Shown here: piece by piece, positions 11,359 to 29,360 of the stretch
Numbering within the stretch: position 1 is the stretch's first letter
Layout: each line of letters begins with the position of its first letter
Source of the DNA: Flavihumibacter profundi
Lineage (GTDB): Bacteria; Bacteroidota; Bacteroidia; Chitinophagales; Chitinophagaceae
Assembly (NCBI RefSeq): GCF_020076305.1
Contig: NZ_JAIQXE010000002.1
Coordinates: forward strand, 62,001-126,000
Length of the DNA: 64,000 nucleotides
Direction of reading: 5' to 3'
Notes under the pieces: model-generated
Told to the model about the DNA's origin: nothing
Databases searched by the model: none
The model's input: the letters and a program-made list of their open reading frames with translations, nothing else
Made by a program: the position numbers and the translations under genes

Positions 11359-12032
11359 GCCAACTTTATATTATAATACCTGCCTATAATGAACAAGGCA
11401 TGCTGAACGAGGTGATAAAAAACATTCGCCAGGTAACAGCTGCCCATATTATAGTGGTAGATGACGGATCAAGGGATCCCCTTTACGTTGACCAGGATTT
11501 TAAATCAGTCAATTTATTGAGGCACTATGTTAACCTTGGCCAGGGTGCTGCTCTTGCAACAGGAATTCAATATGCACTGCAACTTGGTGCGGACATGGTT
11601 GTCACTTTTGATGCAGACGGGCAACACGATCCAAAGGATATTGCTGCAATAACAGAACCTGTTAAAAGCGACCAGGCCGATATTGTTTTCGGTTCACGCT
11701 TTATGGGCACAAAAAACCAGGTGCCGGTGCTTAAAAGGATATTGATTGCTATGGCAAGGACATTTCATTGGCTATTAACCGGATACCGGATGACCGATGC
11801 ACATAACGGCCTTCGGGCGATGAATCGTAAAGCTGCTACAGTAATTCGCATAACTGAAAACCGAATGGCCCATGCAACAGAAATATTGTTTGAAATTAAA
11901 AGGCATAAACTCAGGTGGAAGGAAGTACCAGTAAATATCGTTTACACCCCGTATAGCCAAAAGAAAGGACAGTCCCCGGCAAATAGCATCCGTATTTTTT
12001 TTGATGTAGTTTTACACAAACTGTTCCGATGA
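11355..12032 (+). CDS. GT2 glycosyltransferase, polyprenyl-phosphate sugar synthase-like
   Basis: A 225-residue GT-A fold enzyme resembling dolichyl/polyprenyl-phosphate mannose or glucose synthases. It has IPAYNEQ (8-14), VVDDGSRD (34-41), the metal-binding DAD of TFDADGQHDP (Asp86, Asp88) and a basic TYSQKKG-like region near the C-terminus. It lacks a membrane anchor. Translation starts at TTG in the overlap TTGA with the stop of the GT-C gene, the only start that fits the N-terminus of the fold. It likely charges a lipid carrier with sugar for the neighbouring GT-C enzymes; DUF2304 proteins often follow such enzymes, as here. Confidence 0.85.
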   Translation: MSQLYIIIPAYNEQGMLNEVIKNIRQVTAAHIIVVDDGSRDPLYVDQDFKSVNLLRHYVNLGQGAALATGIQYALQLGADMVVTFDADGQHDPKDIAAITEPVKSDQADIVFGSRFMGTKNQVPVLKRILIAMARTFHWLLTGYRMTDAHNGLRAMNRKAATVIRITENRMAHATEILFEIKRHKLRWKEVPVNIVYTPYSQKKGQSPANSIRIFFDVVLHKLFR

Positions 12033-12355
12033 CAGCTATCCAGATTGTTTTAATTACCGGAGTACTGTTCATACTGGTATACTTCATTCAACGCCTGCAA
12101 AAAGCGGTGATCAGTGTTTTATTTATGGTATTGTTAAGCGGGTTGGCAGTATTATTTATTCTTCAACCGGAATTAACCAATACTATAGCCCACAAAATTG
12201 GTGTAGGAAGGGGAGCCGACCTGGTTTTTTATATCAGCATATTATTGTTCTGGTACTTTATTTTAAGATTATATGCAAGGATCAGGAAGCTGGAAGAAAC
12301 TGTAACAACCCTGATCCGGCAGGAGGCCATAAAAAATGCCGGAACACATGACTGA
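12029..12355 (+). CDS. DUF2304 small membrane protein
   Basis: A 108-residue protein with three membrane segments (about 4-21, 26-45 and 66-83), followed by a short coiled-coil tail (RKLEETVTTLIRQEA). Size, topology and place directly after a GT2 polyprenyl-phosphate sugar synthase match DUF2304, whose members probably anchor or assist the soluble GT2 at the membrane. The start is in an ATGA overlap with the GT2 stop. The end overlaps the next gene by 8 to 20 bases depending on that gene's start. Confidence 0.8.
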   Translation: MTAIQIVLITGVLFILVYFIQRLQKAVISVLFMVLLSGLAVLFILQPELTNTIAHKIGVGRGADLVFYISILLFWYFILRLYARIRKLEETVTTLIRQEAIKNAGTHD

Positions 12356-13565
12356 TAAAATGAAGCTAAACCATAAAGAATCTGAGGTTAGATTTCTTAG
12401 TATTGTAATGCCTTGCCTGAATGAAGTTCTGACACTACGTACCTGTATTCGCAGGGCGAAATTTTTTTTAGCCACTCTTGATATTCCAAATGAAATAGTA
12501 ATAGCAGACAACGGATCAACCGACGGTTCTATTGATATCTGCAAGGAAGAAGGAGTGCGATGCCTGCAGGTTCCCATGAGGGGATATGGTTCGGCGCTGC
12601 ATTATGGGATCATGGCGGCTAAAGGGTCACATATTATTTTTGGTGATTCCGATGATAGTTATCATTTCGATGAGTGCCAGCCTTTTTATGAAAAACTACA
12701 GCAGGGTGCTGACCTGGTAGTTGGTAATCGTTTCAAAGGCGGGGTTGAAAAAGGTGCTATGCCCTTTTTGCACCGTTACCTGGGCACCCCGGTGATTTCC
12801 TATATGGGCCGCAAATCCTTTAAAGTGCCGTACAGGGATTTTAACTGCGGGCTTAGGGCTATCCGTAAAGCTTCATACCTGGAATTGGGCATGCAGGCCA
12901 GGGGAATGGATTTTATAACGGAGATGCTGGCGCGCGCAGGCTATCGGGAATTAAACATAGCAGAAGTCCCGGTGAAATTATATAAAGACGGTCGCGATCG
13001 TCCGCCGCACCTTAAGACCTGGCAGGATGGCTGGCGACAATTCCGGCAGATCATTATGTTAAGCCCAAGGTGGTTTTTACTGATCCCGTCCCTTGTTTTC
13101 CTGGTAATGGGACTGCTCTTGTTTTTTGCTTTGCTTTTTACCAAGCTGCAAATCGCAAAAGTGACTTTCGACATTCATTCCCTGTTTTTTGGCGCAGTAT
13201 TCATTCTGCTGGGGTTACAGCTTCTCCAGTTTTATTTGTTACTCAGGTTCTATGGGTTTAAGATAAGGTTACATAAGCTAAACCAAATAGAAAAAAAGAT
13301 AATACAGATTTTTCGGTTTGAAAAAGGGCTGATTATAGGATGCCTGGTTTTTGTATTTGGCGTTTTATTATCTTTTATTGCCGTTTACCAGTGGGCTACA
13401 GGCAACTATGGCAACCTGGATCCGATGCATACATTCAGGCTTATCATTCCAGGCGGATTAGGAATTATGGCTGGCACACAAGTCATCATATTTTCTTTCC
13501 TGCTGAACGCGCTGGTCACTTTTAATATCAGCTTCAAAGAAGAGGAACCAAACTGGATCAATTGA
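12336..13565 (+). CDS. GT2 glycosyltransferase with C-terminal membrane domain
   Basis: A 409-residue protein. The GT-A domain (about 18-240) shows VMPCLNE (24-30), IADNGSTDGS (56-65) and the DXD-type DSDDSYH (104-110). Two membrane segments near 245-300 and two more near 335-405 form a C-terminal domain, as in polyprenyl-phosphate glycosyltransferases of the DPM/GtrB-like group. Three ATG codons (12336, 12348, 12360) can start it. All precede the fold; 12348 would give an 8-base overlap with DUF2304. It is a second, distinct lipid-sugar synthase in the operon, which suggests two donor sugars or two steps. Confidence 0.8.
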   Translation: MPEHMTDKMKLNHKESEVRFLSIVMPCLNEVLTLRTCIRRAKFFLATLDIPNEIVIADNGSTDGSIDICKEEGVRCLQVPMRGYGSALHYGIMAAKGSHIIFGDSDDSYHFDECQPFYEKLQQGADLVVGNRFKGGVEKGAMPFLHRYLGTPVISYMGRKSFKVPYRDFNCGLRAIRKASYLELGMQARGMDFITEMLARAGYRELNIAEVPVKLYKDGRDRPPHLKTWQDGWRQFRQIIMLSPRWFLLIPSLVFLVMGLLLFFALLFTKLQIAKVTFDIHSLFFGAVFILLGLQLLQFYLLLRFYGFKIRLHKLNQIEKKIIQIFRFEKGLIIGCLVFVFGVLLSFIAVYQWATGNYGNLDPMHTFRLIIPGGLGIMAGTQVIIFSFLLNALVTFNISFKEEEPNWIN

Positions 13566-13587
13566 GTAGTAAGATTTTTTTTCCTGG

Positions 13588-15240
13588 ATGAAACCGGGTA
13601 AACCATATTCAGTTACGCTGAGGGTCACCACAGTCTTGTATTTGCTGGTGGCCACATTTGTTTTTTCATCTCTCAAAACAAAAATTAATCCGGATGGTAT
13701 CGCTTACCTGACCATCGCGAAAAATTACGCACATGCACATTGGGCAGAAGCGGTTAATGCATACTGGTCACCATTATTATCCTGGCTATTGGCCCCATTT
13801 TGCTGGCTACCTGTTGAACCGCTTTTTATTTTCTATGTTATCAATGTACTGGCAGGACTGGCGGGTATCATTGTGTTTTATACACTGATGGTACAGTTGG
13901 GTTTCTCAGTTACATTGCAAAATTTCCTTCTCCCGCTATGCGCTGTTTTCATGCTGCGGTTTGCCTATTATACATCGACACCCGACCTTGCTTCTGTGGT
14001 ACTTTTACTCTTATTCCTGCGTTACTGGCTCAGGGGAAATCTTAACCTGAGGCCATTTAATACAGCAATCTGGTTGGTGGTATTGTATTTTGCCAAAGCC
14101 TATAATTTTTTCTTTGTCAGTGGCCTGATCTGTTTTGATCTGCTTACATTATTGCTTAACAAAAGGACCAACCGCTACAAGCTGGTGGGTAGCTTTTGCA
14201 AGTTATATGTAATCTTTTTTATTTTGGTATCACCATGGCTTTTTGCACTTCACCAAAAGTATGGTGGATTGATGCTGGCCGGAACTGCAAAATTTAACCA
14301 TGGTGCAGCAATTGTAAATTTATCCTTACTGGGAAAGGGAATTCCTGGAACAGAAGCCCTTTCAAACAACTACGAATTTTATACGGCATTCATAAACCCG
14401 CCTCATGAATATTCGGTTTTCGCCTGGGAGGATCCTGTTCGTAAGGCAACTTTCAGGGATTATGCAGTTTTTTCTTCAAAGGATAATTTCCTTTTACAAT
14501 TAAAGGTAGTACTTACGAATATCCGGCTTTTGTTAGGTGGCTATACCGATATGCATGCCATAATAGGGCTTAGTCTATGCCTCCTGCTTATTGGGTTTTT
14601 CATCACAACAGTATCAATGCTTAAGAATAATGTAACCCTGCCTGTTCTTCTTGAACAGGAAATAACCAGGATTTTTGTTTTCAGTTGCTTTTACCTGAGC
14701 GGTTATTTATTGCTATTTGTAGAAGATCGTTATTTATGGATAAATCTGCTGGTGGGCTTATTGGGCATCGGATTTTTAAGTAAACACTTATTAAAAAGTG
14801 CCAACTCATTTTTTAGCGAAAAGCAATTCTCATTCCCAGGATTTTTCCTTACGGTACCGGCCACAGCATTTGTTTCTTATCAATTGATTTGGACGCATTT
14901 TTTTTCCGCACCTATTTTTAATAGTGAGACAGGCAAGTCAGAATATACGTTCGCGAAAGGGTTAAAAAAAGCGCCACCGTATCAAACACGTATGGCTCAC
15001 TGGCCGAATTCTGAGGATTATAGCCTATATGCTTCCTGGTTCACTGCTTATTTTTCAGAAGGGCGCCACTATAATTGCCTGCCGGCTGAAATCAGTAAGG
15101 CCAATGCGCTCATCGGGGCAAATAATATCAGTGTAGTATTTGTTTCCGATACAGCAAAAGTTCCGGGGGATTTCGTGATCGTACACTGGAAGAAGATTGT
15201 TGGTCCGATTCCCAATACAGATGTGTATATTAAGCCCTAA
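13588..15240 (+). CDS. GT-C-like membrane protein, tandem paralogue 1
   Basis: A 550-residue protein with about ten membrane segments and a soluble C-terminal tail of 100 residues. The first loop has KINPDGIAYLTIAKNYA followed by AYWSPLLSW; the acidic residue after the first segment is typical of GT-C transferases. It shares many blocks with the next gene (NPDxIxYLTIAKNY, NAYWSPL, LYFAKAYNFFFV, GTAKFNHGA, FAWEDPV, YLLxFVEDRY, ISKANxLI), so the two are a tandem duplication. It begins 22 bases after the GT2 gene. The substrate is unknown. I assign the GT-C fold by topology only. Confidence 0.65.
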   Translation: MKPGKPYSVTLRVTTVLYLLVATFVFSSLKTKINPDGIAYLTIAKNYAHAHWAEAVNAYWSPLLSWLLAPFCWLPVEPLFIFYVINVLAGLAGIIVFYTLMVQLGFSVTLQNFLLPLCAVFMLRFAYYTSTPDLASVVLLLLFLRYWLRGNLNLRPFNTAIWLVVLYFAKAYNFFFVSGLICFDLLTLLLNKRTNRYKLVGSFCKLYVIFFILVSPWLFALHQKYGGLMLAGTAKFNHGAAIVNLSLLGKGIPGTEALSNNYEFYTAFINPPHEYSVFAWEDPVRKATFRDYAVFSSKDNFLLQLKVVLTNIRLLLGGYTDMHAIIGLSLCLLLIGFFITTVSMLKNNVTLPVLLEQEITRIFVFSCFYLSGYLLLFVEDRYLWINLLVGLLGIGFLSKHLLKSANSFFSEKQFSFPGFFLTVPATAFVSYQLIWTHFFSAPIFNSETGKSEYTFAKGLKKAPPYQTRMAHWPNSEDYSLYASWFTAYFSEGRHYNCLPAEISKANALIGANNISVVFVSDTAKVPGDFVIVHWKKIVGPIPNTDVYIKP

Positions 15241-15293
15241 GCAGTCTTAAAGAAAGAGTTTTGTAATAAGGATTAAAAATATTCGGGAAAAAC

Positions 15294-16880
15294 ATGAATA
15301 GTATGACGGAAAAATGGTCAGGTTGGTTTTGGGCTATACTGGCCGTTTACCTGCTGGGAGGTTTTATCTTATATTTCCCGCTTCGTTACCAGGTAAATCC
15401 TGATGCCATCAGTTACCTTACGATTGCAAAAAATTATTCCCGGGGTTATTGGATGGATGCGGTCAATGCATATTGGTCGCCATTAATTTCCTGGGTCATT
15501 GCCCTGTTTTGCAGGATCCCGGTTGACCCGCTTTTCATTTTCAAATGGTATAACCTGATAGTTGGCATGGGCGGCTTGTTTGCCTGCAACCAATTGATGC
15601 AATACCTGGGTATAAAAAGCTATTCCAGGAATTTATTCCTTTCAATACTCGCTATCATTTTTTTAAGATTTGTTTTTTCTGTTACTACCCCTGACTTAAC
15701 AGTCACAGTTTTGTTGTTGTTCTTTTTGCCTTATTGGTTAACCGGCAAGCTCCTGCGGAAACCATTAATCACGGGAACCTGGATCGCCCTTTTATATTTT
15801 GCCAAGGCCTATAATTTCTTTTTTGTAACCGGACTCCTGGTTTTCGAGGTAGCTAGCCTTGTGGTTCAAAAAGAGCTACCGATAAAAAGGATACTCGGAA
15901 ATATATTGCTTCTGTATGGGGTCTTTTTTATCCTTGCATCACCATGGCTATGGGCTTTGCACCATAAGTACGGATATTTTATGCTTGCAGGTACCGCCAA
16001 GTTTAACCACGGGGCTGCACGCTATGATAATTACGCGTATATGCTCCGCTTTGTTGCTCCACCGCATAGCCATTCTGTATTTGCCTGGGAAGACCCGGTC
16101 CTGAAGTCCGGATTCCGCGATTACTCTGTTTTTGAATCCCGTGAAAATTTCCTGTTCCAGCTTAAAATAGTCTGGAAAAATTTGTTGCAGTTTTTAACAG
16201 GTGCAACAAATACCCTGCTAATTGTTTTCATTGGAACGATTTTAATGATAGTTAGTTATTTAATACGCATTAAAGAATTAGCAGGAATGCCTGCAATTGG
16301 CAAATGGCTTTTTAAGAATGAGTATTTTAAAATATTCGCTTTTTCAACTTTATATATTAGCGGGTATCTGTTGATTTTTGTTGAAGACAGGTATGTTTGG
16401 ACCAGCGTGGTATTGTCTGTTATTGCCGGTGCATTTTTATTTGATTATTTTCTTTCGGTGGACAAAAGGCGGTGGTTATATTTTGCATTATTTCTTGTAT
16501 TAGATATTATCCTTGCCTGGCATAGCCTGTATAGCAATTTTTTTAAAGCACCGCCACACTATAAAGAGATTGCAATTGCAGAATACAGGACATCCCGGCG
16601 CTTTATTTCCCTTCCACCGGAAAAGAAGAAGATGGCTAAATGGCCTGATGACGGCGGTTATACATTATTCGGATCCTGGTACGTAGCTTATTTTTCTGAG
16701 GGGAGCCATTATTTTTCACTACCTGCTGACATCAGCAAGGCAAATGAATTAATTGAAGGCAATGGGATCTCAATTGTCTTTGTACCTGCCGGTACTGAAA
16801 TTCCCGAAGGCTTCGTTATCAAAAACTGGACGAAAATATCCGATGGGATTCCTGAATCAATTATTTACCAGCGTCCTTAA
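15294..16880 (+). CDS. GT-C-like membrane protein, tandem paralogue 2
   Basis: A 528-residue paralogue of the preceding protein, with the same loop motif (QVNPDAISYLTIAKNYS) and the same C-terminal soluble tail (AYFSEGSHYFSLPADISKANELI). It lacks about 20 residues that paralogue 1 has after GTAKFNHGA. A second ATG nine bases downstream is an alternative start. It is the last gene of the glycosyltransferase operon; its 3' end overlaps the convergent exbD by 20 bases, so no terminator hairpin is present between them. Confidence 0.65.
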   Translation: MNSMTEKWSGWFWAILAVYLLGGFILYFPLRYQVNPDAISYLTIAKNYSRGYWMDAVNAYWSPLISWVIALFCRIPVDPLFIFKWYNLIVGMGGLFACNQLMQYLGIKSYSRNLFLSILAIIFLRFVFSVTTPDLTVTVLLLFFLPYWLTGKLLRKPLITGTWIALLYFAKAYNFFFVTGLLVFEVASLVVQKELPIKRILGNILLLYGVFFILASPWLWALHHKYGYFMLAGTAKFNHGAARYDNYAYMLRFVAPPHSHSVFAWEDPVLKSGFRDYSVFESRENFLFQLKIVWKNLLQFLTGATNTLLIVFIGTILMIVSYLIRIKELAGMPAIGKWLFKNEYFKIFAFSTLYISGYLLIFVEDRYVWTSVVLSVIAGAFLFDYFLSVDKRRWLYFALFLVLDIILAWHSLYSNFFKAPPHYKEIAIAEYRTSRRFISLPPEKKKMAKWPDDGGYTLFGSWYVAYFSEGSHYFSLPADISKANELIEGNGISIVFVPAGTEIPEGFVIKNWTKISDGIPESIIYQRP

Positions 16881-17409
16881 TTGCAAAGGTCAAATTTGCA
16901 ATGGCATTGTTGTCCTCGGCAACGCAATATTTGCGTACATCGTTAATCAGCATTTCATCCAGCAGGTCCACGAGGTTTTTGTAGGAACTGGATTTGTCGG
17001 GATAAATAATGATGGTGAGGTCTTTTTCCTTTCCAAGGAGTCGCAGGGCTTTTTTCTTTTCGCGGATAAGCTGGCCCACACCATCACTTAAACCAAAACC
17101 AATGCTGCCAAACTGGTTTGACTGAAGGGCATTGGGCAGGCTTCCATGGTAGAAATAAACTTTATCGTTTTCTGATGGCACCAGGGTCAGGGATGTAGAT
17201 TCACCGACTTTAGAAGGAGTGCCGCCGGCAGGCAAGTAAAACCGGAGGGCTTTTTGTTGTTGCATGGTTGTTGAAAAGATAAAAAATGTTATCAGGAGGA
17301 AGCCCAGGTCTACCATTGGGGTGAGGTCTACTTTTGTGGAATTCTTTTTCAACCGGGCAATACTTCCCTGCTTACCGCCCGAAGGGGTATTGTTAATGAT
17401 TTCAGCCAT
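16861..17409 (-). CDS. exbD: ExbD/TolR-family biopolymer transport protein
   Basis: A 182-residue protein with one N-terminal membrane segment (about 32-50) containing Asp34 in VDLTPMVDLGFLLITFFIF, matching the proton-carrying Asp of ExbD/TolR. The rest is a periplasmic domain (TIIIYPDKSSSYKNLVDLLDEM). The reading frame extends upstream to 17580, but the ATG at 17409 (MAEIINN) puts the membrane segment where the family has it. ExbD normally works with ExbB and TonB in energising outer membrane transport; no ExbB or TonB gene is adjacent, so it is an orphan or an additional copy here. Confidence 0.85.
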   Translation of the reverse strand: MAEIINNTPSGGKQGSIARLKKNSTKVDLTPMVDLGFLLITFFIFSTTMQQQKALRFYLPAGGTPSKVGESTSLTLVPSENDKVYFYHGSLPNALQSNQFGSIGFGLSDGVGQLIREKKKALRLLGKEKDLTIIIYPDKSSSYKNLVDLLDEMLINDVRKYCVAEDNNAIANLTFAIKDAGK

Positions 17410-17646
17410 AAAGTGAAGGTTTTCAATTAGATGATAAACGATGATGATTCCATAAATTGAATTCAACATATGGAGTTTGCATGCAGGCAGTAGTTGCCTG
17501 GAAGTATTAGGCATAAAAAAATATAACCTACAAGTTTTTAAAAGGTTTTTTTCGATTGCGTGTTTATAAATAATAAACATATATTAGTATCCCTAAACAA
17601 TTTATTATACCAGTAAATACTTTTACGATATAGATAGCGAAAGTGT

Positions 17647-19014
17647 ATGAGAAAAGAAATTAATAGTCATTTGCGCACAGAAGGCGATATCAATTTTTCT
17701 GAAGCGAGAAAAAATTGGGCAGAAAGGAATAATGATCCGGCAACAACAGCTATGCTGGAAGCTGATTCCAGGTATTTCCTTCATCAGTCACTGTCAACGC
17801 CTTGCCTTGATGTACTGAAAAGTTGTGAAGGCATTTATATTACCAACCTACAGGACAAATCATATATCGATTTTCATGGTAATAATGTTCATCACCTTGG
17901 ATACCGGAATAAATATATCCTGGACCGTGTGAAAGCCCAGATGGACGAACTTCCTTTTTCACCAAGGCGATTTACAAATCCTGTTGCCATTGAACTGGCG
18001 GAGCGCCTTGCATCTTTAACCAATGGCGTGCTTTCAAGGGTCCTGCTTGCGCCTGGCGGTACCTCTGCAATTGGAATCGCCCTTAAACTTGCAAGAGTAG
18101 TAACCGGAAAGTATAAAACAATCTCCATGTGGGACGCATTTCATGGCGCTTCCATGGATAGCATAACAGTTGGTGGCGAATACATGTTCCAAAAAGATAT
18201 TGGTCCGCTGATTCCAGGGAATATCCATGTGCCACCACCCGATAATTACAGGGGGATGTGGACAAATCCGGATGCTGAAGACAGCGATATCGCCTATGCC
18301 AATTACATTGAATATGTAATTGAAAAGGAAGGCGATATCGGGGCGGTTGTTGCAGAAACGATTCGCAGCACAGATGTGAAAGTGCCTTCAAAAGCTTACT
18401 GGAAAAGGGTTAGGGAAATTTGTGACAAACACGGGGTATTGCTGATACTGGATGAGATACCGATATGCCTTGGACGGACTGGTGCTGTTTTTACATACCA
18501 GCAATATGATATTGAACCTGATATATTAGTGATCGGCAAGGGACTGGGTGCAGGAGTCATCCCAATGGCTGCAATGATGTGCCGCGAAGAATATAATGTG
18601 GCCGGCCATATATCGCTTGGGCACTATACACATGAAAAGAGTCCCCTTGGTGCTGCTGCAGCGCTGGCTGCACTGGATTATATGGAAGAGTTTAAGGTAT
18701 TGCAACATGTAAATAAGATGGAAGCGTATATGTGTGAGCGTTTGCAAAACATGTATGACCGTCATAGCATTATTGGCCAGGTTAGAGGAATGGGTATGTT
18801 GTGGGGAGTGGAACTGGTTACTGATCGCAAATCAAAAGCGAAAGACATTGCTTCCGCAGAGAAGATCATGTACCGCTGCATGGAAAACGGGTTAAGCTTC
18901 AAGGTTTCGGCAGGGAATGTCTTATCCTTATACCCACCATTAATTACTGAACAAAATCAACTTGCAGCGGCATTGGATATTGTTGAAGAAGCAATCATGT
19001 ATACTACTAAATAA
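17647..19014 (+). CDS. Class III PLP enzyme, PbfA-like phosphonate ammonia-lyase
   Basis: A 455-residue fold-type I PLP enzyme. It shows GGTSAIG (137-143), the WDAFHGAS phosphate/ring-stacking region (162-169), DE269-270 (LILDEIP) and the PLP-binding Lys298 (VIGKGLGAG). Blocks RTEGDINFS near the start, FHGNNVHHLGY (76-86) and SMWDAFHGASMDSI recall, from memory, (R)-1-hydroxy-2-aminoethylphosphonate ammonia-lyase (PbfA), which gives phosphonoacetaldehyde. Ethanolamine-phosphate phospho-lyase and omega-transaminases are close relatives and remain possible. The next two genes on the same strand encode a phosphoester/phosphonate hydrolase-like lipoprotein and a transporter. No phosphonatase (PhnX) or PhnW is visible in the window. 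Confidence 0.65.
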   Translation: MRKEINSHLRTEGDINFSEARKNWAERNNDPATTAMLEADSRYFLHQSLSTPCLDVLKSCEGIYITNLQDKSYIDFHGNNVHHLGYRNKYILDRVKAQMDELPFSPRRFTNPVAIELAERLASLTNGVLSRVLLAPGGTSAIGIALKLARVVTGKYKTISMWDAFHGASMDSITVGGEYMFQKDIGPLIPGNIHVPPPDNYRGMWTNPDAEDSDIAYANYIEYVIEKEGDIGAVVAETIRSTDVKVPSKAYWKRVREICDKHGVLLILDEIPICLGRTGAVFTYQQYDIEPDILVIGKGLGAGVIPMAAMMCREEYNVAGHISLGHYTHEKSPLGAAAALAALDYMEEFKVLQHVNKMEAYMCERLQNMYDRHSIIGQVRGMGMLWGVELVTDRKSKAKDIASAEKIMYRCMENGLSFKVSAGNVLSLYPPLITEQNQLAAALDIVEEAIMYTTK

Positions 19015-19035
19015 CTTTCCCAGATCGGATAATTT

Positions 19036-20733
19036 ATGATTCATAAAATTCCAGTCCTGCAAAGGACATTTCAATTATTGATTACTGGCGTGGCGGTTTC
19101 CTGTATGATTACCGGATGTAAAACGGGTGGGAAAACTAATTACCCGCCAGGAATAGATCATGTAATTGTAATTGGTGTTGATGGCATGAGTCCGGATGGG
19201 ATCCGTAAGGCCAATGTGCCTGTACTCAAAAAAATGGTTACGGATGGATCGGTAAAATGGAATGTCCGGACAGCATTGCCGTCAAGCAGCAGTACAAACT
19301 GGGCATCCATGATTATGGGTGCGGGGCCTGAGCAGCATGGGGTTTTAAGTAATGAGTGGGAAAAAGATAATGCCTCCCTCCCACCTGTTGTAAGGGGCGA
19401 GGAAGGTATTTTTCCCACTATATTTTCCGTTGTACACCAGAACCGGCCAGATGCAGAAATCGGGGCAGTGTATAATTGGGATGGTTTTGGCCGTCTGTTC
19501 GAAAAGAAAGCCGTGAATTATGACCATACTTTTTCTACGGAAGATTCCACTACCACAGACTTCATTAACTATATCAAAGCAAAAAAGCCAGTTTTCGCTT
19601 TCCTCCACCTGGATCATGTTGATCATGCCGGTCACCACGATGGACATGGTACTCCAGCCTACCTGGCAGCAATTGGAAAAGCGGATTCACTTATCGGTAA
19701 AGTACTGGATGGCGTAAAGGCTGCCGGTATAGAAGATAATACCCTGATCATAGTTACATCCGACCATGGTGGTAAGGGATATGGACATGGCGGGGCAACT
19801 ATTGAGGAAGCGGAAATTGCGATGTTCCTGTATGGGAAAGGTGTTAAAAAGGGGTATGAAATACCGGAAGAAGTATATACTTATGACCTTGCAGCAACCA
19901 TCGCTTTCGCATTAAATATGGAATCTCCTTATGCCTGGATCGGCAGGCCTGTGAAAAGTGCATTTGAAGGATTTTCAGTACCAGCTAATTTATGGAAAGG
20001 CAAAAAATTAATTGCATCACCGGTAATATCACCTGCTCCGCATTTATACCAGCAGGCAGGGGGATTATATATCGATACTCCCGCAACAGTAGAGATAATA
20101 TCGGTTGCCAACAGAAGCACCATCCGTTATACAACTAACGGAAGTGAACCGGATTCTTCATCAAAGGAATACAAATCCCCTTTCCGCCTGGATACCACGA
20201 CTGTTGTAAAAGCCAGGTCTTATGACAGCGAGGGGAATGAAAGTCCGGCCAGTGCCGCTTATTTCAGGGTATTAAAATCCGGTGGTGGAAATGGCCTTAA
20301 TACAATACTTTATGAAGGAACGGACTGGAAAAGGCTGCCAGTTTTTGAAAATGTTAAACCTGCTTCGAAATGGGTGAGCCATGAGTTTAATATTGACCAG
20401 GAACAAGTAAATTCAATGGTCAGTAAAGGCAAAGATAATTTTGGGGTTGTCTTTAATGGTTTCCTGGAAATAGACCAACCGGGGCAGTATACTTTTTATC
20501 TCCAGTCGGATGATGGAAGCAACCTTTATATAGACAATAAAGAAGTAGTAAATAATGATGGCGGCCATGGCGTTATAGAAGCCGCAGGCGCTGTTCAGCT
20601 TGGAAAAGGGAAACACGCTATCCGGGTGGAATATTTTAATGGTTTCGGAGGATTCTGGCTGGATGCTTATTACAAAGGGCCGGAAATACCCCGTCAAATA
20701 ATTCCTGCTAACAAATTATTCTTGAAAAATTGA
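19036..20733 (+). CDS. Alkaline phosphatase-superfamily lipoprotein with CHB_HEX_C and PA14-like domains
   Basis: A 565-residue protein. A signal ends in lipobox ITGC (Cys28). Residues 40-330 are an ENPP/phosphonoacetate hydrolase-like domain: Asp49 (GVDGM), nucleophile region LPSSSSTNW (81-89), metal ligands in HLDHVDHAGHHDGHGT and SDHGG. It then has a chitobiase-like C-terminal domain (about 340-415; IRYTTNGSEPDSSS) and a PA14-like domain (about 430-560; YTFYLQSDDGSNLYID). These accessory domains usually bind glycans. It starts 21 bases after the PLP enzyme gene. Because it is exported, it may release a phosphonate or phosphoethanolamine from extracellular material. Known PhnA enzymes are cytosolic, so this is not a simple PhnA. 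Confidence 0.75.
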   Translation: MIHKIPVLQRTFQLLITGVAVSCMITGCKTGGKTNYPPGIDHVIVIGVDGMSPDGIRKANVPVLKKMVTDGSVKWNVRTALPSSSSTNWASMIMGAGPEQHGVLSNEWEKDNASLPPVVRGEEGIFPTIFSVVHQNRPDAEIGAVYNWDGFGRLFEKKAVNYDHTFSTEDSTTTDFINYIKAKKPVFAFLHLDHVDHAGHHDGHGTPAYLAAIGKADSLIGKVLDGVKAAGIEDNTLIIVTSDHGGKGYGHGGATIEEAEIAMFLYGKGVKKGYEIPEEVYTYDLAATIAFALNMESPYAWIGRPVKSAFEGFSVPANLWKGKKLIASPVISPAPHLYQQAGGLYIDTPATVEIISVANRSTIRYTTNGSEPDSSSKEYKSPFRLDTTTVVKARSYDSEGNESPASAAYFRVLKSGGGNGLNTILYEGTDWKRLPVFENVKPASKWVSHEFNIDQEQVNSMVSKGKDNFGVVFNGFLEIDQPGQYTFYLQSDDGSNLYIDNKEVVNNDGGHGVIEAAGAVQLGKGKHAIRVEYFNGFGGFWLDAYYKGPEIPRQIIPANKLFLKN

Positions 20734-22034
20734 AAAAGATACAACAGCTTTTACAGCGTTCAAAGTTTGCATTTATCGGCTGGTCAGTTATAGCTGCATT
20801 TGGTACTTATTTCTGCATGTATGCATTTCGAAAACCTTTTACAGCAGGGACTTACAGCGGGTACAGTTTGTGGGGAATGGAATATAAAAGTGTGCTGATT
20901 ATTGCTCAGGTGCTTGGATATATGTTATCGAAATTTATTGGAATCAAGGTAATTTCAGAACTAAAACCCACCCAGCGAAAACTCTTAATTACAGGGCTGA
21001 TCCTTTTTGCAGAAGTAGCACTGGTATTATTCGGGCTGGCGGGTACTTCGTATAATTTTATTTTCCTCTTCATGAATGGATTACCCCTTGGCATGGTATG
21101 GGGGGTTGTGTTCAGTTATCTTGAAGGCAGGCGTTTTACTGAACTGCTGGCGATGGGGCTCAGCATCAGCCTTATTGTATCTTCCGGCATATTGAAGACG
21201 GTATATTTTGAGGTCCATGGCTGGTTTGGGTTTATTTCTGAATTCTGGATGCCTGCGGTGATTGGGTTGATCTTTCTTCCGTTTTTTCTGTTTTTTGTGT
21301 GGATGCTTTCAGTTATTCCGGCGCCGGATGAAACAGATATTCTTTTAAGGGCGGAGAGGACACCAATGACCAATGAAGATAAGCGGACCGTTTTGCGGAA
21401 TTTCGGTCCCGGGATTTTATGCTTCGTTATAATCTATGTAATGCTAGCGTGCATGCGTGACTTCCGCGATAATTTTTCAGTAGAAATATGGAATGAAATA
21501 GGTGGGGTGTTTGATAAAACCGTTTTTTCAAGAACAGAACTTATCACAGGCTTGATTGTACTTCTTGCCGTTGGCTGTTTATCATTAATCAAGACCAATT
21601 CACGGGGTTTTTTGGGTGTGCAATTCCTTATCGCCGTAGGCGTTATTTTAGCCGCATTCAGCACCTTTCTATTCCAGCAGCATCTTATATCACCATTCTG
21701 GTGGATGCAATTGATTGGGGTAGGCTTGTTCCTTGCGTATATTCCAATGCAGATAGCTTTATTTGAGCGGATGATCGCTTTATTTAAAATCAGGGCCAAT
21801 GCCGGATTTTTCGTTTACCTGTGCGATTCAATCGGTTACCTGGGCAGTGTCTTTTTATTACTTTACAAGGAATTTTTTATGAAAGACCTTAGCTGGGCTA
21901 AAGTGCTCATGAAGTTTAGCTATTTACTTACTGCAGTTTGTTTGCTATTTTTAGTATTTGCAGCATTATTTTTCAAACGTAAATCGATATTGAAACATTC
22001 AATAGATGAAATTAAAATAACAGAGCCCGTTTAA
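20730..22034 (+). CDS. DUF5690 / MFS-type transporter
   Basis: A 434-residue protein with about twelve membrane segments. The pattern FAFIGWSVIAAFGTYFCMYAF with RKPF, and the central loop LLRAERTPMTNEDKRT, match the DUF5690 branch of the major facilitator superfamily, distantly like organophosphate:phosphate antiporters (GlpT/UhpT). It starts at TTG in the overlap TTGA with the lipoprotein stop, so it is translationally coupled. In this locus it is the likely importer for the product of the lipoprotein enzyme, to be used by the PLP enzyme; that link is inference. Confidence 0.75.
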   Translation: MKKIQQLLQRSKFAFIGWSVIAAFGTYFCMYAFRKPFTAGTYSGYSLWGMEYKSVLIIAQVLGYMLSKFIGIKVISELKPTQRKLLITGLILFAEVALVLFGLAGTSYNFIFLFMNGLPLGMVWGVVFSYLEGRRFTELLAMGLSISLIVSSGILKTVYFEVHGWFGFISEFWMPAVIGLIFLPFFLFFVWMLSVIPAPDETDILLRAERTPMTNEDKRTVLRNFGPGILCFVIIYVMLACMRDFRDNFSVEIWNEIGGVFDKTVFSRTELITGLIVLLAVGCLSLIKTNSRGFLGVQFLIAVGVILAAFSTFLFQQHLISPFWWMQLIGVGLFLAYIPMQIALFERMIALFKIRANAGFFVYLCDSIGYLGSVFLLLYKEFFMKDLSWAKVLMKFSYLLTAVCLLFLVFAALFFKRKSILKHSIDEIKITEPV

Positions 22035-22049
22035 AAATCCAGGAACTAT

Positions 22050-22637
22050 TTACTCATTATCAGGCAGAAAGAAATAAACTACCAGCATAATTGCATCAGT
22101 ATCACCTGTGTTAGCTATTTTATGCGGTAGCCGGCTATCAAAAAAAAGCGACTCGCCTTCCTGAAAAATATATTTCTGGTCTTCTATCTGGTATTCTACT
22201 TTCCCTTTGATCATATAATTGTATTCATAGGAATCTGTTTTTACATTGCGGGTGCGGCGCGCACCTTTTTTTAATTCCAGCAATACAAAATCAACCGGCC
22301 TTCCGTAGAGTGTGCGGGTAAATACCCGGCGGTATAAAAATCCTTTGGCATATTCCTTTTCAAAAGGTTGGTATTCTTCCTGCGTTTTTAATTCTATTCG
22401 TTGGGCTGCTTTTTTCGGTGAACTTATGTCTTTAAAAAAATCGGTAAGGTCCAGGTCCAGGGAATCAATGATCTTCATTAATACAGGTAGGGAAGGGATG
22501 GTACGGTTATTCTCAATCTGGGAGATCAATCCTTTGCTAACCTGGGCTTTATTGGCCAAATCCTGAATGGTTATATTTTTTTCCTTTCGGATTTCCTTGA
22601 TTTTGTTACTAATCTGGATCAATATATTGTCCTGCAT
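22050..22637 (-). CDS. XRE-family regulator with C-terminal cupin
   Basis: A 195-residue protein. Residues 7-61 are a Cro/CI-type HTH (DLANKAQVSKGLISQIENNRTIPS) and about 105-190 a cupin sensor (YEYNYMIKGKVEYQI, GESLFFDSRLPHKIAN). Such regulators sense a small molecule in the cupin. It is convergent with the transporter gene, 15 bases apart, which makes it the natural candidate to control the 17.6-22.0 kb operon. A 12-bp palindrome CCTGCATGCAGG (22663-22674) lies 26 bases upstream of the start. The ligand is not visible from the sequence. Confidence 0.85.
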   Translation of the reverse strand: MQDNILIQISNKIKEIRKEKNITIQDLANKAQVSKGLISQIENNRTIPSLPVLMKIIDSLDLDLTDFFKDISSPKKAAQRIELKTQEEYQPFEKEYAKGFLYRRVFTRTLYGRPVDFVLLELKKGARRTRNVKTDSYEYNYMIKGKVEYQIEDQKYIFQEGESLFFDSRLPHKIANTGDTDAIMLVVYFFLPDNE

Positions 22638-22662
22638 AATGAATATGTTATTGGGTGCATCT

Positions 22663-22674
22663 CCTGCATGCAGG
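22663..22674. promoter_or_regulatory. Perfect 12-bp palindrome upstream of the XRE-cupin gene
   Basis: CCTGCATGCAGG lies between the asnS stop and the regulator start. Position fits an autoregulatory operator, but no second copy was noticed near 17.6 kb, so the role is speculative. Confidence 0.25.
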
Positions 22675-22710
22675 TATTAATATTGAAGCCAATGGGAAAG
22701 AAAATAATTA

Positions 22711-24153
22711 TTAAAATTCGGCACTCTTTGGTGTTCTTGGAAAAGCAATAACATCCCTGATATTACTCATCCCGGTTACAAACAGCACCATGCGCTCGAA
22801 GCCCAGTCCAAAACCCGCGTGTGGCACGGTTCCGAACCTGCGTGTATCAAGGTACCACCAAAGTTCATCTGCGGGTATATGCATTTCTTTCATGCGTGCT
22901 TCCAGTTTGTCCATTCTTTCTTCCCTTTGTGACCCGCCGACAATTTCACCGATGCCGGGTGCAAGGATATCCATTGCGGCAACAGTTTTACCGTCATCAT
23001 TCTGGCGCATATAAAAGGCCTTGATGTCTTTCGGGTAATTGCTAACGATTACCGGTTTCCTGAAATGTTTTTCAACAAGGTATCTTTCGTGCTCGCTCTG
23101 CATATCGATACCCCATTTTACATCATATTGAAATTTCTTTTTCTTATAGGCAGGGGACTGTAAGAGAATGTCTATGGCTTCTGTATAAGTGATCCGCTCG
23201 AAGTCGTTATTCAATACAAATTCCAGTTTTTCTATTAAGCCCATTTCACTGCGTTTATCAACAGGCAGGCTTTTTTCCTCTTCAGCTAAACGGGTTGCCA
23301 GGAATTCAAGGTCTTCGCGGTTATTTTCCATCGCGAAGCGAATGATGTATTTTATGAAAGATTCAGCCAGGTTCATATTGTCTTCCAGGTCATTGAAAGC
23401 CATCTCTGGTTCGATCATCCAGAATTCAGCCAGGTGCCTTGTGGTATTGGAATTCTCTGCGCGAAAGGTTGGGCCGAAGGTATAAATATCACCAAATGCT
23501 GTAGCACCTAATTCGCCCTCGAGCTGGCCGCTAACGGTCAGGTTTGTACTTTTACCGAAAAAGTCTTCCTTAAAATTAATACTGCCATCTGCTTCACGGG
23601 GTGGATTGTCGAATGGCAATGTGGTTACCCGGAACATTTCGCCTGCACCTTCTGCATCACTGGCCGTTATGATAGGTGTGTGCAGGTAAAGGAATCCTTT
23701 TTCATGGAAGAATTTGTGGATAGCAAAGGCCAGGGCATGGCGTACGCGGAAAACGGAACCGAATGTATTGGTACGAAAACGCAGGTGCGCTTTCTCCCGG
23801 AGGAATTCAAGACTATGTTTTTTGGGTTGTAGTGGATATTTTTCGGCGTCGCTGTCTCCCAGGATCTCCACTGTATTGGCTTTGATCTCCAGTTTCTGTC
23901 CTTTACCCTGTGAAGGGATAACGGTCCCGGTCACTTTTAAGGAACAGCTGGTGGTAATGCGTTTCAGGAAATCATCATCATATTGTCCCAGGGTTACTAC
24001 AACCTGCAGGTTGGTATTGGTAGAGCCGTCATTCAGTGCGATAAACTGGTTGTTACGGAAGGTGCGTACCCATCCCATTACGGTTACTTCCTGCTGTGCC
24101 GGTTCCCAGGTCAGCAATTCTTTGATTTTTACACGCTTGTTGAACATAGCCAT
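22711..24153 (-). CDS. asnS: Asparagine-tRNA ligase
   Basis: A 480-residue class IIb aminoacyl-tRNA synthetase. The N-terminal OB fold ([22 protein letters not shown]) binds the tRNA anticodon. Catalytic motifs follow: motif 2 [21 protein letters not shown] and motif 3 [19 protein letters not shown] near the end. The absence of the archaeal-type AspRS signature, together with the insert typical of AsnRS, supports AsnRS. It may start at 24153 or at the second ATG, 24147; both precede the fold. It is a housekeeping gene read leftward, with no close partner. Confidence 0.95.
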
Positions 24154-24227
24154 TATTTAAGGAGGGCAAAGATAAGCCGATTCGGTGTTTAGGCGGATTC
24201 TGCTTATTTTTATTGGGAAACTTTCAT

Positions 24228-25214
24228 ATGAAAATTGCCTTTTTTTCTACCCAACCCTACGACCGGCAATACTTTACCCGCTTTAACAAAGAGCACGAAC
24301 TGGTATATTTCGAGGCAAGGCTTGGCAGGGAGACCGCTGCCCTGGCAAAGGGCTGCAGGGCTGTTTGTGTTTTTGTAAATGATGTGCTTGACAAGGAAGT
24401 ACTTCAAATTCTTCAACAGCTGGGGGTGGAAATAATTGCCCTGCGTTGTGCCGGCTATAATAATGTTGACCTGAAGGCCGCGTCGGAACTGGACTTCGCT
24501 GTTGTAAGGGTGCCTGCATATTCACCGCATGCTGTGGCGGAACACGCCGTGGCCCTGATCTTATCGCTGAACAGGAAAATCCATAAAGCATATAACCGGG
24601 TAAGGGAAGGGAATTTTTCCCTTGATCGCCTGACCGGCTTTGACCTATATGGCAAAACCGTGGGGGTTATTGGAACCGGGAAAATAGGTGCTGTATTTGC
24701 AGGAATTATGGGGGGCTTTGGTTGCCGGGTATTAGCATTTGATATAATCGCCAACCGCGACCTGGAAGCTAATGGGGTAAAATACCTGCCCATTATGGAT
24801 ATTCTTGAACAGTCAGATATCCTTTCTTTGCATTGCCCGTTGAACGACCAAACCCGCCACCTCATTAATGACCAAACCCTGTCGATGATAAAGCCGGGGA
24901 GCATGCTGATCAATACCAGCAGGGGCGCCCTGGTTGATACCGAGGCTGCCATAAATGCCTTAAAAAGCGGCCGGCTGGGCTATCTGGGTATTGATGTCTA
25001 TGAGCAGGAGGAAAAATTATTTTTTTATGACCGAAGTGAAGAACTCATTGAAGATGATCTGATTTTACGCCTGATCAGCTTCCCTAATGTGCTAATCACC
25101 GCCCACCAGGGCTTTTTTACAGAAGAAGCACTTACCCAGATAGCGGTCACAACACTTGAAAATATTGACTTGTATGCTGCCGGCCTGCCTGTTAAGAATA
25201 GTATATTGGGGTGA
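24228..25214 (+). CDS. ldhA: D-2-hydroxyacid dehydrogenase (D-lactate dehydrogenase type)
   Basis: A 328-residue NAD-dependent enzyme. The NAD fold has GVIGTGKIGAVFAG (about 145-158). Catalytic Arg is in TSRGALVD, Glu in the following strand region (DVYEQEE), and His in TAHQGFFTEEAL. The KIAFFSTQPYDRQYF start and LRCAGYNNVDL block are typical of fermentative LdhA, which reduces pyruvate to D-lactate. The frame opens at 24213, but the ATG at 24228 (MKIAFF) is the family start. It is monocistronic and divergent from asnS. Confidence 0.88.
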   Translation: MKIAFFSTQPYDRQYFTRFNKEHELVYFEARLGRETAALAKGCRAVCVFVNDVLDKEVLQILQQLGVEIIALRCAGYNNVDLKAASELDFAVVRVPAYSPHAVAEHAVALILSLNRKIHKAYNRVREGNFSLDRLTGFDLYGKTVGVIGTGKIGAVFAGIMGGFGCRVLAFDIIANRDLEANGVKYLPIMDILEQSDILSLHCPLNDQTRHLINDQTLSMIKPGSMLINTSRGALVDTEAAINALKSGRLGYLGIDVYEQEEKLFFYDRSEELIEDDLILRLISFPNVLITAHQGFFTEEALTQIAVTTLENIDLYAAGLPVKNSILG

Positions 25215-27221: not shown

Positions 27222-28298
27222 GTGGCTATACAACAAGTTGATATCACTAGGTTCCTGCAGCTGTCCGAACATCACCAGGTACTGGATGTACGCAGTCCGG
27301 CTGAGTTTTCACATGCCGCAATTCCAGGTGCTTATTCTTTACCGTTATTTACGGATGATGAAAGGAAAGTGGTTGGCACGGCTTATAAGCAAAACAGCAG
27401 GGAGCAGGCTATCAAAATCGGCCTCGGATATTTTGGTCCCAAGATGCGGGGCATGGTGGAAGAAGTGGAGAGCTTGCTGGAAAAGAGGAGTAAATCAACC
27501 GGGAGCAATGAAGAAAAGCCTGCAGGTACCGTACTGGTGCATTGCTGGAGGGGCGGAATGCGAAGTGCCGGTGTGGCCTGGCTGCTCGATTTATATGGGT
27601 TTAAGGTATACACTTTAATTGGTGGCTATAAAGCCTTCAGGAAGTTTGCCCTGCATAGTTTTACTATCCCATATGCTATCAAGATAGTGGGTGGTTACAC
27701 CGGAAGCGGTAAAACAGCTTTGCTAAAACGATTAGGACGATTAGGCGATCCCGTTATAGACCTGGAAGCCCTGGCATCGCATAAGGGGTCGGCCTTTGGC
27801 CACTTCGGGCAACCTGATCAGCCATCGCAGGAGATGTTTGAAAATAAACTGGCGATGGAGTTGTTTCGCCTGCAACAACAGGCAACAAACAAGTCCTGCT
27901 GGATTGAAGATGAAAGCCTGCGTATCGGCACGGTTTTAATTCCCCCGGATTTTTACAAACAGATGCGGAATTCCCCTTGTTATTTCCTGGATATACCTTT
28001 TGAAAGCCGTTTGCAGTATATCCTTAAAGATTACGGCCGGACAGACCGTGATAAACTGATCAATGCAGTGTTGCGTATCCAGAAAAGATTAGGCGGACTT
28101 GAAACCAAAACTGCCATAAACTGCCTTGTGGAAAATGATCTTAATGGGGCGTTTGCCATATTGCTGAAGTACTATGATAAATGGTACCTGAAAGGATTAA
28201 ACAGCAGGGAGTCCGGATGTCCCCCAGTGGTAAATATACCTGCTGATGCTGTTGATGATTTGCGCAATGCGCAATTATTGTTTAACCTGACGAATTGA
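27222..28298 (+). CDS. mnmH: tRNA 2-selenouridine synthase (MnmH/SelU)
   Basis: A 358-residue protein with two domains. The rhodanese domain (1-130) has the catalytic Cys108 in VHCWRGGMRSAG. A P-loop domain follows with GGYTGSGKT at 157-165. MnmH converts 2-thiouridine to 2-selenouridine at the wobble base of Lys, Glu and Gln tRNAs through geranylated intermediates, using selenophosphate. It starts with GTG (27222), 64 bases after the rho terminator, and is followed 6 bases later by selD, so the pair is an operon for tRNA selenation. Confidence 0.92.
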   Translation: MAIQQVDITRFLQLSEHHQVLDVRSPAEFSHAAIPGAYSLPLFTDDERKVVGTAYKQNSREQAIKIGLGYFGPKMRGMVEEVESLLEKRSKSTGSNEEKPAGTVLVHCWRGGMRSAGVAWLLDLYGFKVYTLIGGYKAFRKFALHSFTIPYAIKIVGGYTGSGKTALLKRLGRLGDPVIDLEALASHKGSAFGHFGQPDQPSQEMFENKLAMELFRLQQQATNKSCWIEDESLRIGTVLIPPDFYKQMRNSPCYFLDIPFESRLQYILKDYGRTDRDKLINAVLRIQKRLGGLETKTAINCLVENDLNGAFAILLKYYDKWYLKGLNSRESGCPPVVNIPADAVDDLRNAQLLFNLTN

Positions 28299-28304
28299 TT
28301 TAAT

Positions 28305-29360
28305 ATGAGTGAGATTCATTATGCCTTGACGCAATTTTCGCATGGAGCTGGTTGTGGCTGTAAAATTTCGCCTCAGGTACTGGACCAGATCCTGCATACT
28401 GATATTCCCGCCCCGGAAGCAAAGAATTTGCTGGTGGGCAACCAGTCTAAAGATGATGCTGCTGCCTATGACCTGGGGAATGGCACTGCACTGATCTCAA
28501 CCACCGACTTTTTCATGCCCATCGTAGACGATGCTTACGATTTTGGCAGGATTGCTTCCGCAAATGCAATCAGTGATGTATATGCAATGGGTGGGAAGCC
28601 TTTATTGGCCATTGCTATCCTGGGCTGGCCGGTTGATAAATTACCGGCGTCGGTAGCCAGGCGGGTGCTGGAAGGAGCAAGGGCAACCTGCGCTGCTGCC
28701 GGAATTCCATTAGCTGGCGGACATAGCATTGATTCGCCAGAGCCTATATTCGGATTGGCGGTAAACGGCCTGGTTGACATTAAGAACCTTAAGCAGAATA
28801 ATACCGCTAAAGCCGGTGACCTGCTGTTAATGACAAAATCTTTGGGCACGGGAGTGCTTTCAACTGCGCAGAAACGCAAAGCCCTTGACCAGGAATATTA
28901 TACTGCTTTTGTAGAACAGCTGATGCGACTCAACAGTGCCGGAGCCGCACTTGGTCAAATAAAAGGTGTTCATGCGATGACTGACATTACCGGTTTTGGC
29001 TTATTGGGCCATTTAATAGAAATGGCAGGCGGAAGTGGATTAACGGCTGAAATAGAGTATGGTGGAATTCCTGTCCTTGAAGGTGTGCGTGAAGGTATTG
29101 CCAGGAAAATGGTTCCTGGTGGTACTAACAGGAACTGGGCCAGTTATTGCGAAAAAGTTTCTTTTGCCCAAAACCTTAATGAAGCAGATGCAATCAGCCT
29201 CCTGGCAGATCCACAAACCAATGGCGGATTGCTGATAGCAGTAGACCCCGCTTCATTGCAGGAAGTGCAGGACCTTTTCATTGGTTTCGGTTTAGGAAAA
29301 TACATAGAACCAATTGGTCGCCTGGTGCCGGCAGGGCACCATGTAGTTGAAGTGAAATAA
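28305..29360 (+). CDS. selD: Selenide, water dikinase
   Basis: A 351-residue ATP-dependent enzyme making selenophosphate from selenide. The active-site loop is SHGAGCGCK with Cys17 and Lys20, encoded by TGT, so it is a cysteine form and not a selenoprotein. Other family signatures are AYDLGNGTALISTTDFFMPIVDD, NAISDVYAMGG and the C-terminal DPQTNGGLL. It directly follows mnmH. No selA, selB or selC is visible in the window, so here selenophosphate appears to serve tRNA modification. Confidence 0.95.
   Translation: MSEIHYALTQFSHGAGCGCKISPQVLDQILHTDIPAPEAKNLLVGNQSKDDAAAYDLGNGTALISTTDFFMPIVDDAYDFGRIASANAISDVYAMGGKPLLAIAILGWPVDKLPASVARRVLEGARATCAAAGIPLAGGHSIDSPEPIFGLAVNGLVDIKNLKQNNTAKAGDLLLMTKSLGTGVLSTAQKRKALDQEYYTAFVEQLMRLNSAGAALGQIKGVHAMTDITGFGLLGHLIEMAGGSGLTAEIEYGGIPVLEGVREGIARKMVPGGTNRNWASYCEKVSFAQNLNEADAISLLADPQTNGGLLIAVDPASLQEVQDLFIGFGLGKYIEPIGRLVPAGHHVVEVK

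Follow-up and report, generated by a model that had tools for sequence, protein, structure and literature searches.

Among the described systems for aminophosphonate breakdown, the closest to the one reported here are the phnW-pbfA-phnX and phnWAY-pbfA clusters of Proteobacteria, and the activity of PbfA has been demonstrated with the enzyme of Vibrio splendidus (PMC8154272). The oxidoreductase PbfD (TIGR03364) is an accessory of the hydrolytic pathway formed by PhnW, PhnY and PhnA (PhnWYA, PMC10590968). For uptake, AepP was shown by mutants to be an aminoethylphosphonate permease of the major facilitator superfamily (MFS), related to GlpT (PMC8316502), and Bacteroidota phosphate-utilisation clusters have been described as having phosphodiesterases (PMC8115612). 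Statements on the papers cited here refer to excerpts of their text. The present analysis concerns a 64,000-nucleotide stretch of the genome of Flavihumibacter profundi (contig NZ_JAIQXE010000002.1, positions 62,001 to 126,000; called the window), in which a PbfA-like pyridoxal phosphate (PLP) enzyme is encoded next to a lipoprotein, a DUF5690 protein and an XRE-cupin regulator. We consider that this locus probably serves uptake and the entry step in a system for aminophosphonate degradation that is divided between two loci. Its enzyme set is known and the arrangement is an unusual, split one; the new predictions are the role of DUF5690, phosphonate esters as substrate of the lipoprotein, and a shared operator.

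All four open reading frames are present where a sequence-only reading of the window had placed them, including the convergent regulator gene (Table 1). The spacing between pbfA and the lipoprotein gene is 21 bp, and the TTG start codon of the DUF5690 gene overlaps the TGA stop codon of the lipoprotein gene (TTGA), as had been read. Genomes and loci used for comparison carry G- and L-numbers, G000 being the genome of the window; genes on the neighbourhood maps were labelled by BLAST matches to reference proteins (window, L128, L054, L042, L047, L052), and the labels were in part checked with hidden Markov models. Another species of the genus, G013, has the same four-gene order, with 81-91% identity, and the locus is partly kept, in rearranged form, in other genera and families, so that its adjacency is not a matter of chance alone. 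Its distribution is patchy: a window-type PbfA occurs in one of 14 other genomes of the genus (G013), the protein of G002 belonging to a more distant group.

Table 1. Features of the pbfA locus of F. profundi; positions are those of the window.
Feature	Position	Strand	Length or start	Domains or remarks
Candidate operator	17582-17598	.		TATTAG-TATCC-CTAAAC, imperfect palindrome, ends 48 bp before pbfA start codon
pbfA-like PLP enzyme gene	17647-19014	+	455 aa	Aminotran_3
Lipoprotein gene	19036-20733	+	565 aa	Phosphodiest (PF01663), CHB_HEX_C_1/Fn3_assoc, PA14
DUF5690 gene	20730-22034	+	TTG start, 434 aa	PF18943, 516.6 bits
XRE-cupin regulator gene	22050-22637	-	195 aa, convergent	HTH_3, Cupin_2

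The PLP enzyme scores 726 bits with the PbfA equivalog model NF049939 of NCBIfam (cut-off 525) and is 53.7-57.3% identical to nine Vibrio homologues. In the two Vibrio records that were examined the gene lies between phnW and phnX, with an aminoethylphosphonate ABC transporter in place of the neighbour genes seen in the window. A maximum-likelihood tree of 35 rows, rooted at the midpoint only and with long branches for L109, Devosia and L051_5049, places the window enzyme in a clade of 16 rows together with the homologues of V. alfacsensis and Vibrio sp. HDW18 (support 98/98); the tree includes five of 20 plasmid-record homologues and was built without L178, L180, the assayed V. splendidus enzyme, ETNPPL and AGXT2. 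Furthermore, 87 of the 88 columns that are invariant in 13 selected phn- or pbfD-linked PbfA proteins are kept. The proposal of phosphonate scavenging around a PbfA-like enzyme is supported by model score, clade and linkage to aminophosphonate genes, and the enzyme groups with Vibrio PbfA and not in an unrelated omega-transaminase clade. Compared with the Proteobacterial clusters, the enzyme family, the predicted reaction and the predicted product phosphonoacetaldehyde are alike, whereas in F. profundi a distance of 206 kb separates pbfA from the downstream genes, and its neighbours encode an exported phosphodiesterase, DUF5690 and an XRE-cupin protein (PMC8154272). Among other homologues, those of Ruegeria and Leisingera adjoin phnA and phnY. 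The Ruegeria protein groups with those of Ensifer and Devosia, outside the Vibrio/window clade, and the stretches examined around the Ensifer, Azospirillum and Devosia genes hold no phn genes.

A second group of PbfA-like proteins was encountered in Bacteroidota (L048, L049, L050, L051, L052 and L165), with 41-45% identity to the window enzyme. Its six rows form a clade of their own (100/100), and the four that were scanned all pass model NF049939 (643.8-653.5 bits). By BLAST labels, no phn or pbfD gene lies in their neighbourhoods, and the group may carry the PbfA label through over-annotation or have a different substrate.

The other enzymes of a complete route are encoded on the same contig, 206 kb from the window locus, where phnA, phnY and phnW lie in a row. 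All three products exceed the cut-offs of their models: PhnA with 498.2 bits (TIGR02335, cut-off 407.6), PhnY with 670.5 bits (TIGR03250, 635.7) and PhnW with 481 bits (TIGR02326, 400.8). The row is preceded by an XRE-cupin gene, the product of which is 59% identical to that of the window, and followed by genes for two beta-propeller phosphoesterases, a TonB receptor, a Phn-HD protein (203.8 bits, just below the cut-off of 214.6), the TIGR03364 oxidoreductase PbfD (392.3 bits, cut-off 285.1) and a second DUF5690 protein (DUF5690b). PhnW, PhnY, PhnA and PbfD of the described pathway are all present in this genome too, the difference being that the genes are divided between two loci (PMC10590968). 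With PhnWYA available 206 kb away, it is enough for the window locus to supply phosphonoacetaldehyde.

This finding divides an earlier statement that neither PhnW nor PhnX was visible. The absence of PhnX stands at the level of the genome, since the best scores of 37.5 bits with TIGR01422 and 41.2 bits with TIGR03351 (cut-off 218.9) fall short, so that a PhnX hidden elsewhere in G000 is rejected as well; PhnW, on the other hand, is present together with PhnY and PhnA; a missing pathway is accordingly rejected, and the suggestion that the set may be an undescribed pathway is not supported. C-P lyase as the final step was rejected too, PhnJ being found in neither of two genomes scanned, G000 among them. 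PhnA is over the cut-off in three of eight genomes scanned (G000, G013 and G261). With TIGR03351, a PhnX-like gene scoring 151-208 bits was found in nine of 20 genomes, none over the cut-off. One of these is a gene of G013 (L113:7647-8348, 151.4 bits) between the Phn-HD and PbfD genes; the corresponding gap in G000 measures only 28 bases (L054:7604-7631), which indicates that the gene was lost or never gained. Matches of 160-181 bits occur in four more genomes of the genus (G001, G007, G010 and G012).

The two halves are tied together by relatives in which they form one locus. In Chitinophaga silvisoli (L207), genes for PbfD, PhnY, PhnA, a 299-aa lipoprotein-type catalytic domain and PbfA lie on one strand, with the DUF5690 gene divergent from pbfA and followed by an XRE-cupin gene. 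PbfA (615.7 bits), PhnA (494.8) and PbfD (349.4) are over their cut-offs and PhnY (616.7) is just below 635.7. Genomes G354 (L161) and G396 (L162) carry a cluster for PhnW, a lipoprotein homologue, PbfA, PhnA, PhnY, PbfD and an MFS_1 protein; in both, PbfA, PhnA and PbfD pass, PhnY scores 639.2 bits in L161 (over) and 632.6 in L162 (just below), and PhnW of G396 scores 461.4 bits. The locus of G080 combines XRE-cupin, PbfA, DUF5690, SusD, SusC, lipoprotein, a phospholipase-C-like gene, PbfD and a PhnX-like gene below the cut-off, and relatives' PbfA genes lie with phn, PhnX-like or pbfD genes in L047, L091, L100 and L103 as well as in L161, L162 and L207. According to the excerpt of one paper, pbfA-phnY-phnA occurs only in Proteobacteria (PMC12366243); the single clusters of L161, L162 and L207, all from Bacteroidota, contradict that statement, G354 and G396 having been assigned by kinship to the phylum of the window genome. 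SusC and SusD are carried by the relatives G080 and G085. For the window, no SusC/SusD pair was found among the eight genes scanned at 15294-25214, which sets the locus apart from polysaccharide utilisation loci of the SusCD type and from the SusCD-like phosphate-utilisation clusters of Flavobacterium (PUS), the excerpted description of which names neither DUF5690 nor PbfA (PMC8115612).

Co-occurrence was counted in a phylum sample of 296 genomes, with lipoproteins accepted above 400 bits and PbfA-like proteins at E <= 1e-90; G409, with a DUF5690 match below the cut-off, was left out. DUF5690 is over the cut-off in 29 genomes and PbfD in 22, and 20 genomes have both (Fisher 3.8e-22, a value that ignores shared ancestry). 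PbfA-like proteins occur in 12 genomes, ten of them with DUF5690. The lipoprotein is found in eight genomes, all eight with PbfA; in seven the two genes share a contig and lie no more than about 6.3 kb apart, and G261 has them on different contigs. Partial lipoprotein matches in G275 and G310 are both without PbfA. A core aminophosphonate gene lies within 7 kb of DUF5690 at 22 of 30 loci. A second collection consists of the best 80 of 587 named DUF5690 loci, which is biased to close relatives, the closest being from Pedobacter and Chitinophaga, and which may share species with the 296-genome sample. Here 71 loci hold a core gene, and four of the other nine (L189, L210, L224 and L257) are contig fragments no longer than 10.2 kb. 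A lipoprotein-like gene is present in 20 of these loci, 15 of which also hold PbfA, a looser tie than the eight out of eight above. Both collections show that the genes co-occur in other genomes, as the sequence-only reading would have it.

The view of the hydrolase as an exported lipoprotein agrees with a lipoprotein signal region that ends in I-T-G-C28 and with the PF01663 core. Acidic residues after the lipidated cysteine act as a surface-export signal; the residues after C28 lack such a signal, for which reason an anchor facing the periplasm is likelier than one at the cell surface. The predicted structure is confident in the core, with an overall predicted template-modelling score (pTM) of only 0.54, and the core resembles nucleotide pyrophosphatase/phosphodiesterases (NPP): the best matches include Xac NPP (Z 29.5 over 262 residues, root-mean-square deviation (rmsd) 3.0) and ENPP7 (Z 28.9). 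Residues D49, S85, D196, H200, D243, H244 and H251 are invariant in nine lipoprotein rows, and S85 aligns with the nucleophile position of Xac NPP, which we take to be Thr90. With roles assigned in part by this alignment and in part from general knowledge of the fold, the protein is predicted to be an NPP-type phosphodiesterase in which the alkaline phosphatase-superfamily core retains nucleophile and metal ligands. The catalytic core is shared with Xac NPP and ENPP7, whereas serine replaces threonine at the nucleophile position and the lipoprotein adds Fn3-associated and PA14 modules at the C-terminus, the lipoprotein signal and the linkage to pbfA. NPP-type enzymes can act on phosphonate esters. 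A PhnA-type C-P hydrolase was considered for the lipoprotein and rejected, the score with the PhnA model being 19.5 bits against a cut-off of 407.6.

The lipoprotein homologues of G354 and G396 are longer (818-821 aa), and both (L161:6886-9351 and L162:5539-7995) match the catalytic part of the window protein twice in succession, apparently through an internal duplication. Beta-propeller proteins with a match to the phosphoesterase family PF04185 recur at L054:1-4985, L113:2-5022 (the copies of L113 by BLAST label only) and L042:10165-12627; they are another candidate for exported cleavage of phosphonate or phosphate esters.

DUF5690 is a candidate aminophosphonate importer, as the sequence-only reading had proposed, and its linkage to PbfD and PbfA genes is strong. 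The model has an MFS fold (mean predicted local distance difference test, pLDDT, 91.5), and its best solved match is the glucose-6-phosphate transporter G6PT/SLC37A4 (Z 32.4, 363 residues, rmsd 3.2). SLC37A4 is an organophosphate antiporter, but the scores of other MFS proteins come to within 1-2 Z units of this match, for example that of URAT1 (31.5), so the likeness to organophosphate antiporters is a hint only; GlpT has Foldseek rank 23 and does not appear among the 50 rows of the structural comparison. All 31 rows of the alignment share the charged residues R34, K53, K68, E132, R210, R243, R347 and D366. The DUF5690 profile gave no match to PDB sequences at E 1, and its comparison with the MFS proteins of L161/L162, represented by two rows, gave a probability of 0.6%. 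With AepP, DUF5690 would share the MFS fold and the proposed cargo; it belongs to a separate Pfam family and shows no profile link to GlpT-like proteins, the comparison not including the AepP sequence itself (PMC8316502). A search of the paper library used here for DUF5690 or PF18943 found no paper. The second copy in G000, DUF5690b, is 35% identical to the window protein and adjoins the distant PbfD gene, so that each of the two copies adjoins a different aminophosphonate-entry enzyme. In G354 and G396, in which no DUF5690 was detected, the transporter slot is occupied by the MFS_1 protein, for which PgtP and GlpT are the best models (below cut-off).

A candidate operator precedes pbfA. The motif GTTTAG-N5-CTAAAC (17 bp) was noticed in the window, L128, L039 and L130, and the window site, which contributed to this first observation, has two mismatches to it. 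In both G000 and G013, near matches precede pbfA and phnA, and in G013 also susC. In a further count the four loci above were left out, as were L163 and L101, the regions of which duplicate L085 and L167; 54 loci were listed, with L113 (no sites) twice, which leaves 53. The DNA preceding the gene set (16.4 kb in total) contains 21 sites, as against five in the remaining 75.4 kb of intergenic sequence and 20 in 743 kb of coding sequence, an enrichment ahead of these genes. The GTTTAG arms were the best of 60 permutations (21 sites against five for the next), and twelve other spacer lengths gave at most four upstream sites. For the 80 best named loci the figures are 26 sites in 34.6 kb upstream and 17 in 105.6 kb of other intergenic DNA, with 13 for the next arm permutation and at most nine for other spacers. 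The divergent pbfA/DUF5690 gap of L207 has two sites. Genome-wide the motif is rare: two sites with at most one mismatch were found in G000 and six in G013, against 16 and 13 with the reversed pattern. Four of these eight are promoters of phnA (both genomes), pbfA (G013) and susC (G013); of the others, two are inside frames, one is where two frames meet end to end, and one is intergenic before a sugar-type MFS gene. An operator-like site 15 bp upstream was also seen for a DUF5690 gene without aminophosphonate neighbours (L105, 7036; G329); G329 has PbfD and a PbfA-like gene elsewhere in the genome, away from L105.

Taken together, the pathway may be pictured as follows. Outside the inner membrane, the envelope-held lipoprotein would cut phosphonate esters, either phosphonolipid head groups or phosphonoglycans, and free (R)-1-hydroxy-2-aminoethylphosphonate (R-HAEP), which DUF5690 would carry across the inner membrane. 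By their families, PbfA would turn R-HAEP into phosphonoacetaldehyde by eliminating water and ammonia, PhnY would oxidise this to phosphonoacetate, and PhnA would split the latter into acetate and phosphate, while PhnW and PbfD would feed in aminoethylphosphonate and its N-methyl form. The 17-bp operator would be common to at least pbfA and phnA, and perhaps be bound by the paralogous XRE-cupin regulators. Reported sources of R-HAEP are an amoebal polysaccharide and a lipid of Bdellovibrio stolpii, for the latter of which the excerpt does not give the stereochemistry (PMC8154272). A bolder version of this proposal, which we hold only tentatively, is that the DUF5690 family of Bacteroidota consists of permeases dedicated to aminophosphonates, that the lipoprotein is a phosphonate-ester hydrolase taking R-HAEP off amoebal phosphonoglycan or sphingophosphonolipids of bacteria, and that these bacteria feed on amoebal and predatory-bacterial membranes through a GTTTAG-N5-CTAAAC regulon.

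Several observations weigh against the two-locus reading. The window locus itself contains no phn gene, SusCD or PhnX, and its pbfA is accordingly not a member of a phn cluster. NF049939 also accepts the second PbfA-like group, which has no phn neighbours, so the model alone does not settle the function. Six of the 29 genomes with DUF5690 have neither PbfA nor PbfD, and in eight of the 30 loci no core gene lies within 7 kb. Five of the 20 named loci with a lipoprotein-like gene show no PbfA in view, and the lipoprotein may therefore serve other phosphonates. Profile comparison shows no sequence link of DUF5690 to organophosphate antiporters. Operator sites are present in only 18 of the 80 named loci, 17 sites lie in other intergenic DNA, and the PbfD/DUF5690b loci of G000 and G013 (L054 and L113) have none, which means that not all parts share the operator. 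Nor do the sites follow the XRE-cupin genes, being found in six of 37 named loci with such a gene and in 12 of 43 without it; the pairing of regulator and operator is thus unproven and the regulator a guess.

Three other explanations were weighed. A phosphorus-starvation island instead of one dedicated route, in which PbfA and PhnWYA act as above, the lipoprotein is a general phosphodiesterase for lipid head groups or nucleotides, and DUF5690 imports the resulting phosphate esters, would agree with the NPP fold, Xac NPP and the alkaline sphingomyelinase ENPP7 being among the best matches, with the phospholipase-C-like gene of the G080 locus, with the five lipoprotein loci lacking PbfA and with the phosphodiesterases of described Bacteroidota clusters (PMC8115612). 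We nevertheless think it unlikely, since in the 296 genomes the lipoprotein is never found without PbfA, the partial matches of G275 and G310 apart, and DUF5690 accompanies PbfD in 20 of its 22 genomes as well as PhnX-like or PhnWYA genes. That DUF5690 instead works as an exporter, or as a sensor-like protein of the superfamily, with uptake by another transporter, is quite improbable. The closeness of other MFS proteins in the structure ranking, including the efflux pump NorA, the existence of UhpC-like sensors in the organophosphate group and the eight loci without a core gene speak for it; against it stand the two copies in G000, each beside its own entry enzyme, and the organophosphate-antiporter-like protein that fills the slot in the two clusters without DUF5690.

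The sequence-only reading had also allowed that the PLP enzyme could equally be an ethanolamine-phosphate phospho-lyase (ETNPPL). Such an enzyme, or an omega-transaminase, in a locus for phosphoethanolamine shares the Aminotran_3 superfamily with PbfA, and ETNPPL is among the solved relatives, yet ETNPPL scores 145.5 bits, below many transaminases, against 726 bits for the PbfA model. The clade with homologues from Vibrio phnW-pbfA-phnX clusters and the conserved columns point the same way, and published PbfA is inactive on ethanolamine (PMC8154272). We have dropped this identity, and regard a phosphoethanolamine locus as highly improbable.

Some features elsewhere in the window deserve mention. 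A block of glycosyltransferase and membrane-protein genes (9574-16880) is absent at the corresponding place in G013, where an exbD-like gene comes directly after the DUF3089 gene; within it, the adjoining proteins encoded at 13588-15240 and 15294-16880 resemble each other, the second being without a Pfam match. At 27222-29360, a rhodanese-domain protein is followed by an AIR-synthase-type protein, by Pfam, a pair that presumably corresponds to tRNA 2-selenouridine synthase and selenide water dikinase. An aldehyde dehydrogenase fused to a MaoC domain (Pfam) is encoded at 52879-54924 and is, we assume, PaaZ-like.

For the excerpts at hand, aminophosphonate use by Bacteroidota is seen in genomes, and an inner-membrane importer is tied to a named family only as AepP, in one species (PMC8316502). 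The linkage described here makes DUF5690 a testable candidate for the aminophosphonate importer of the phylum. The lipoprotein would offer a handle on the use of esterified phosphonates, beyond free ones, and the operator predicts which of the scattered genes form one regulon.

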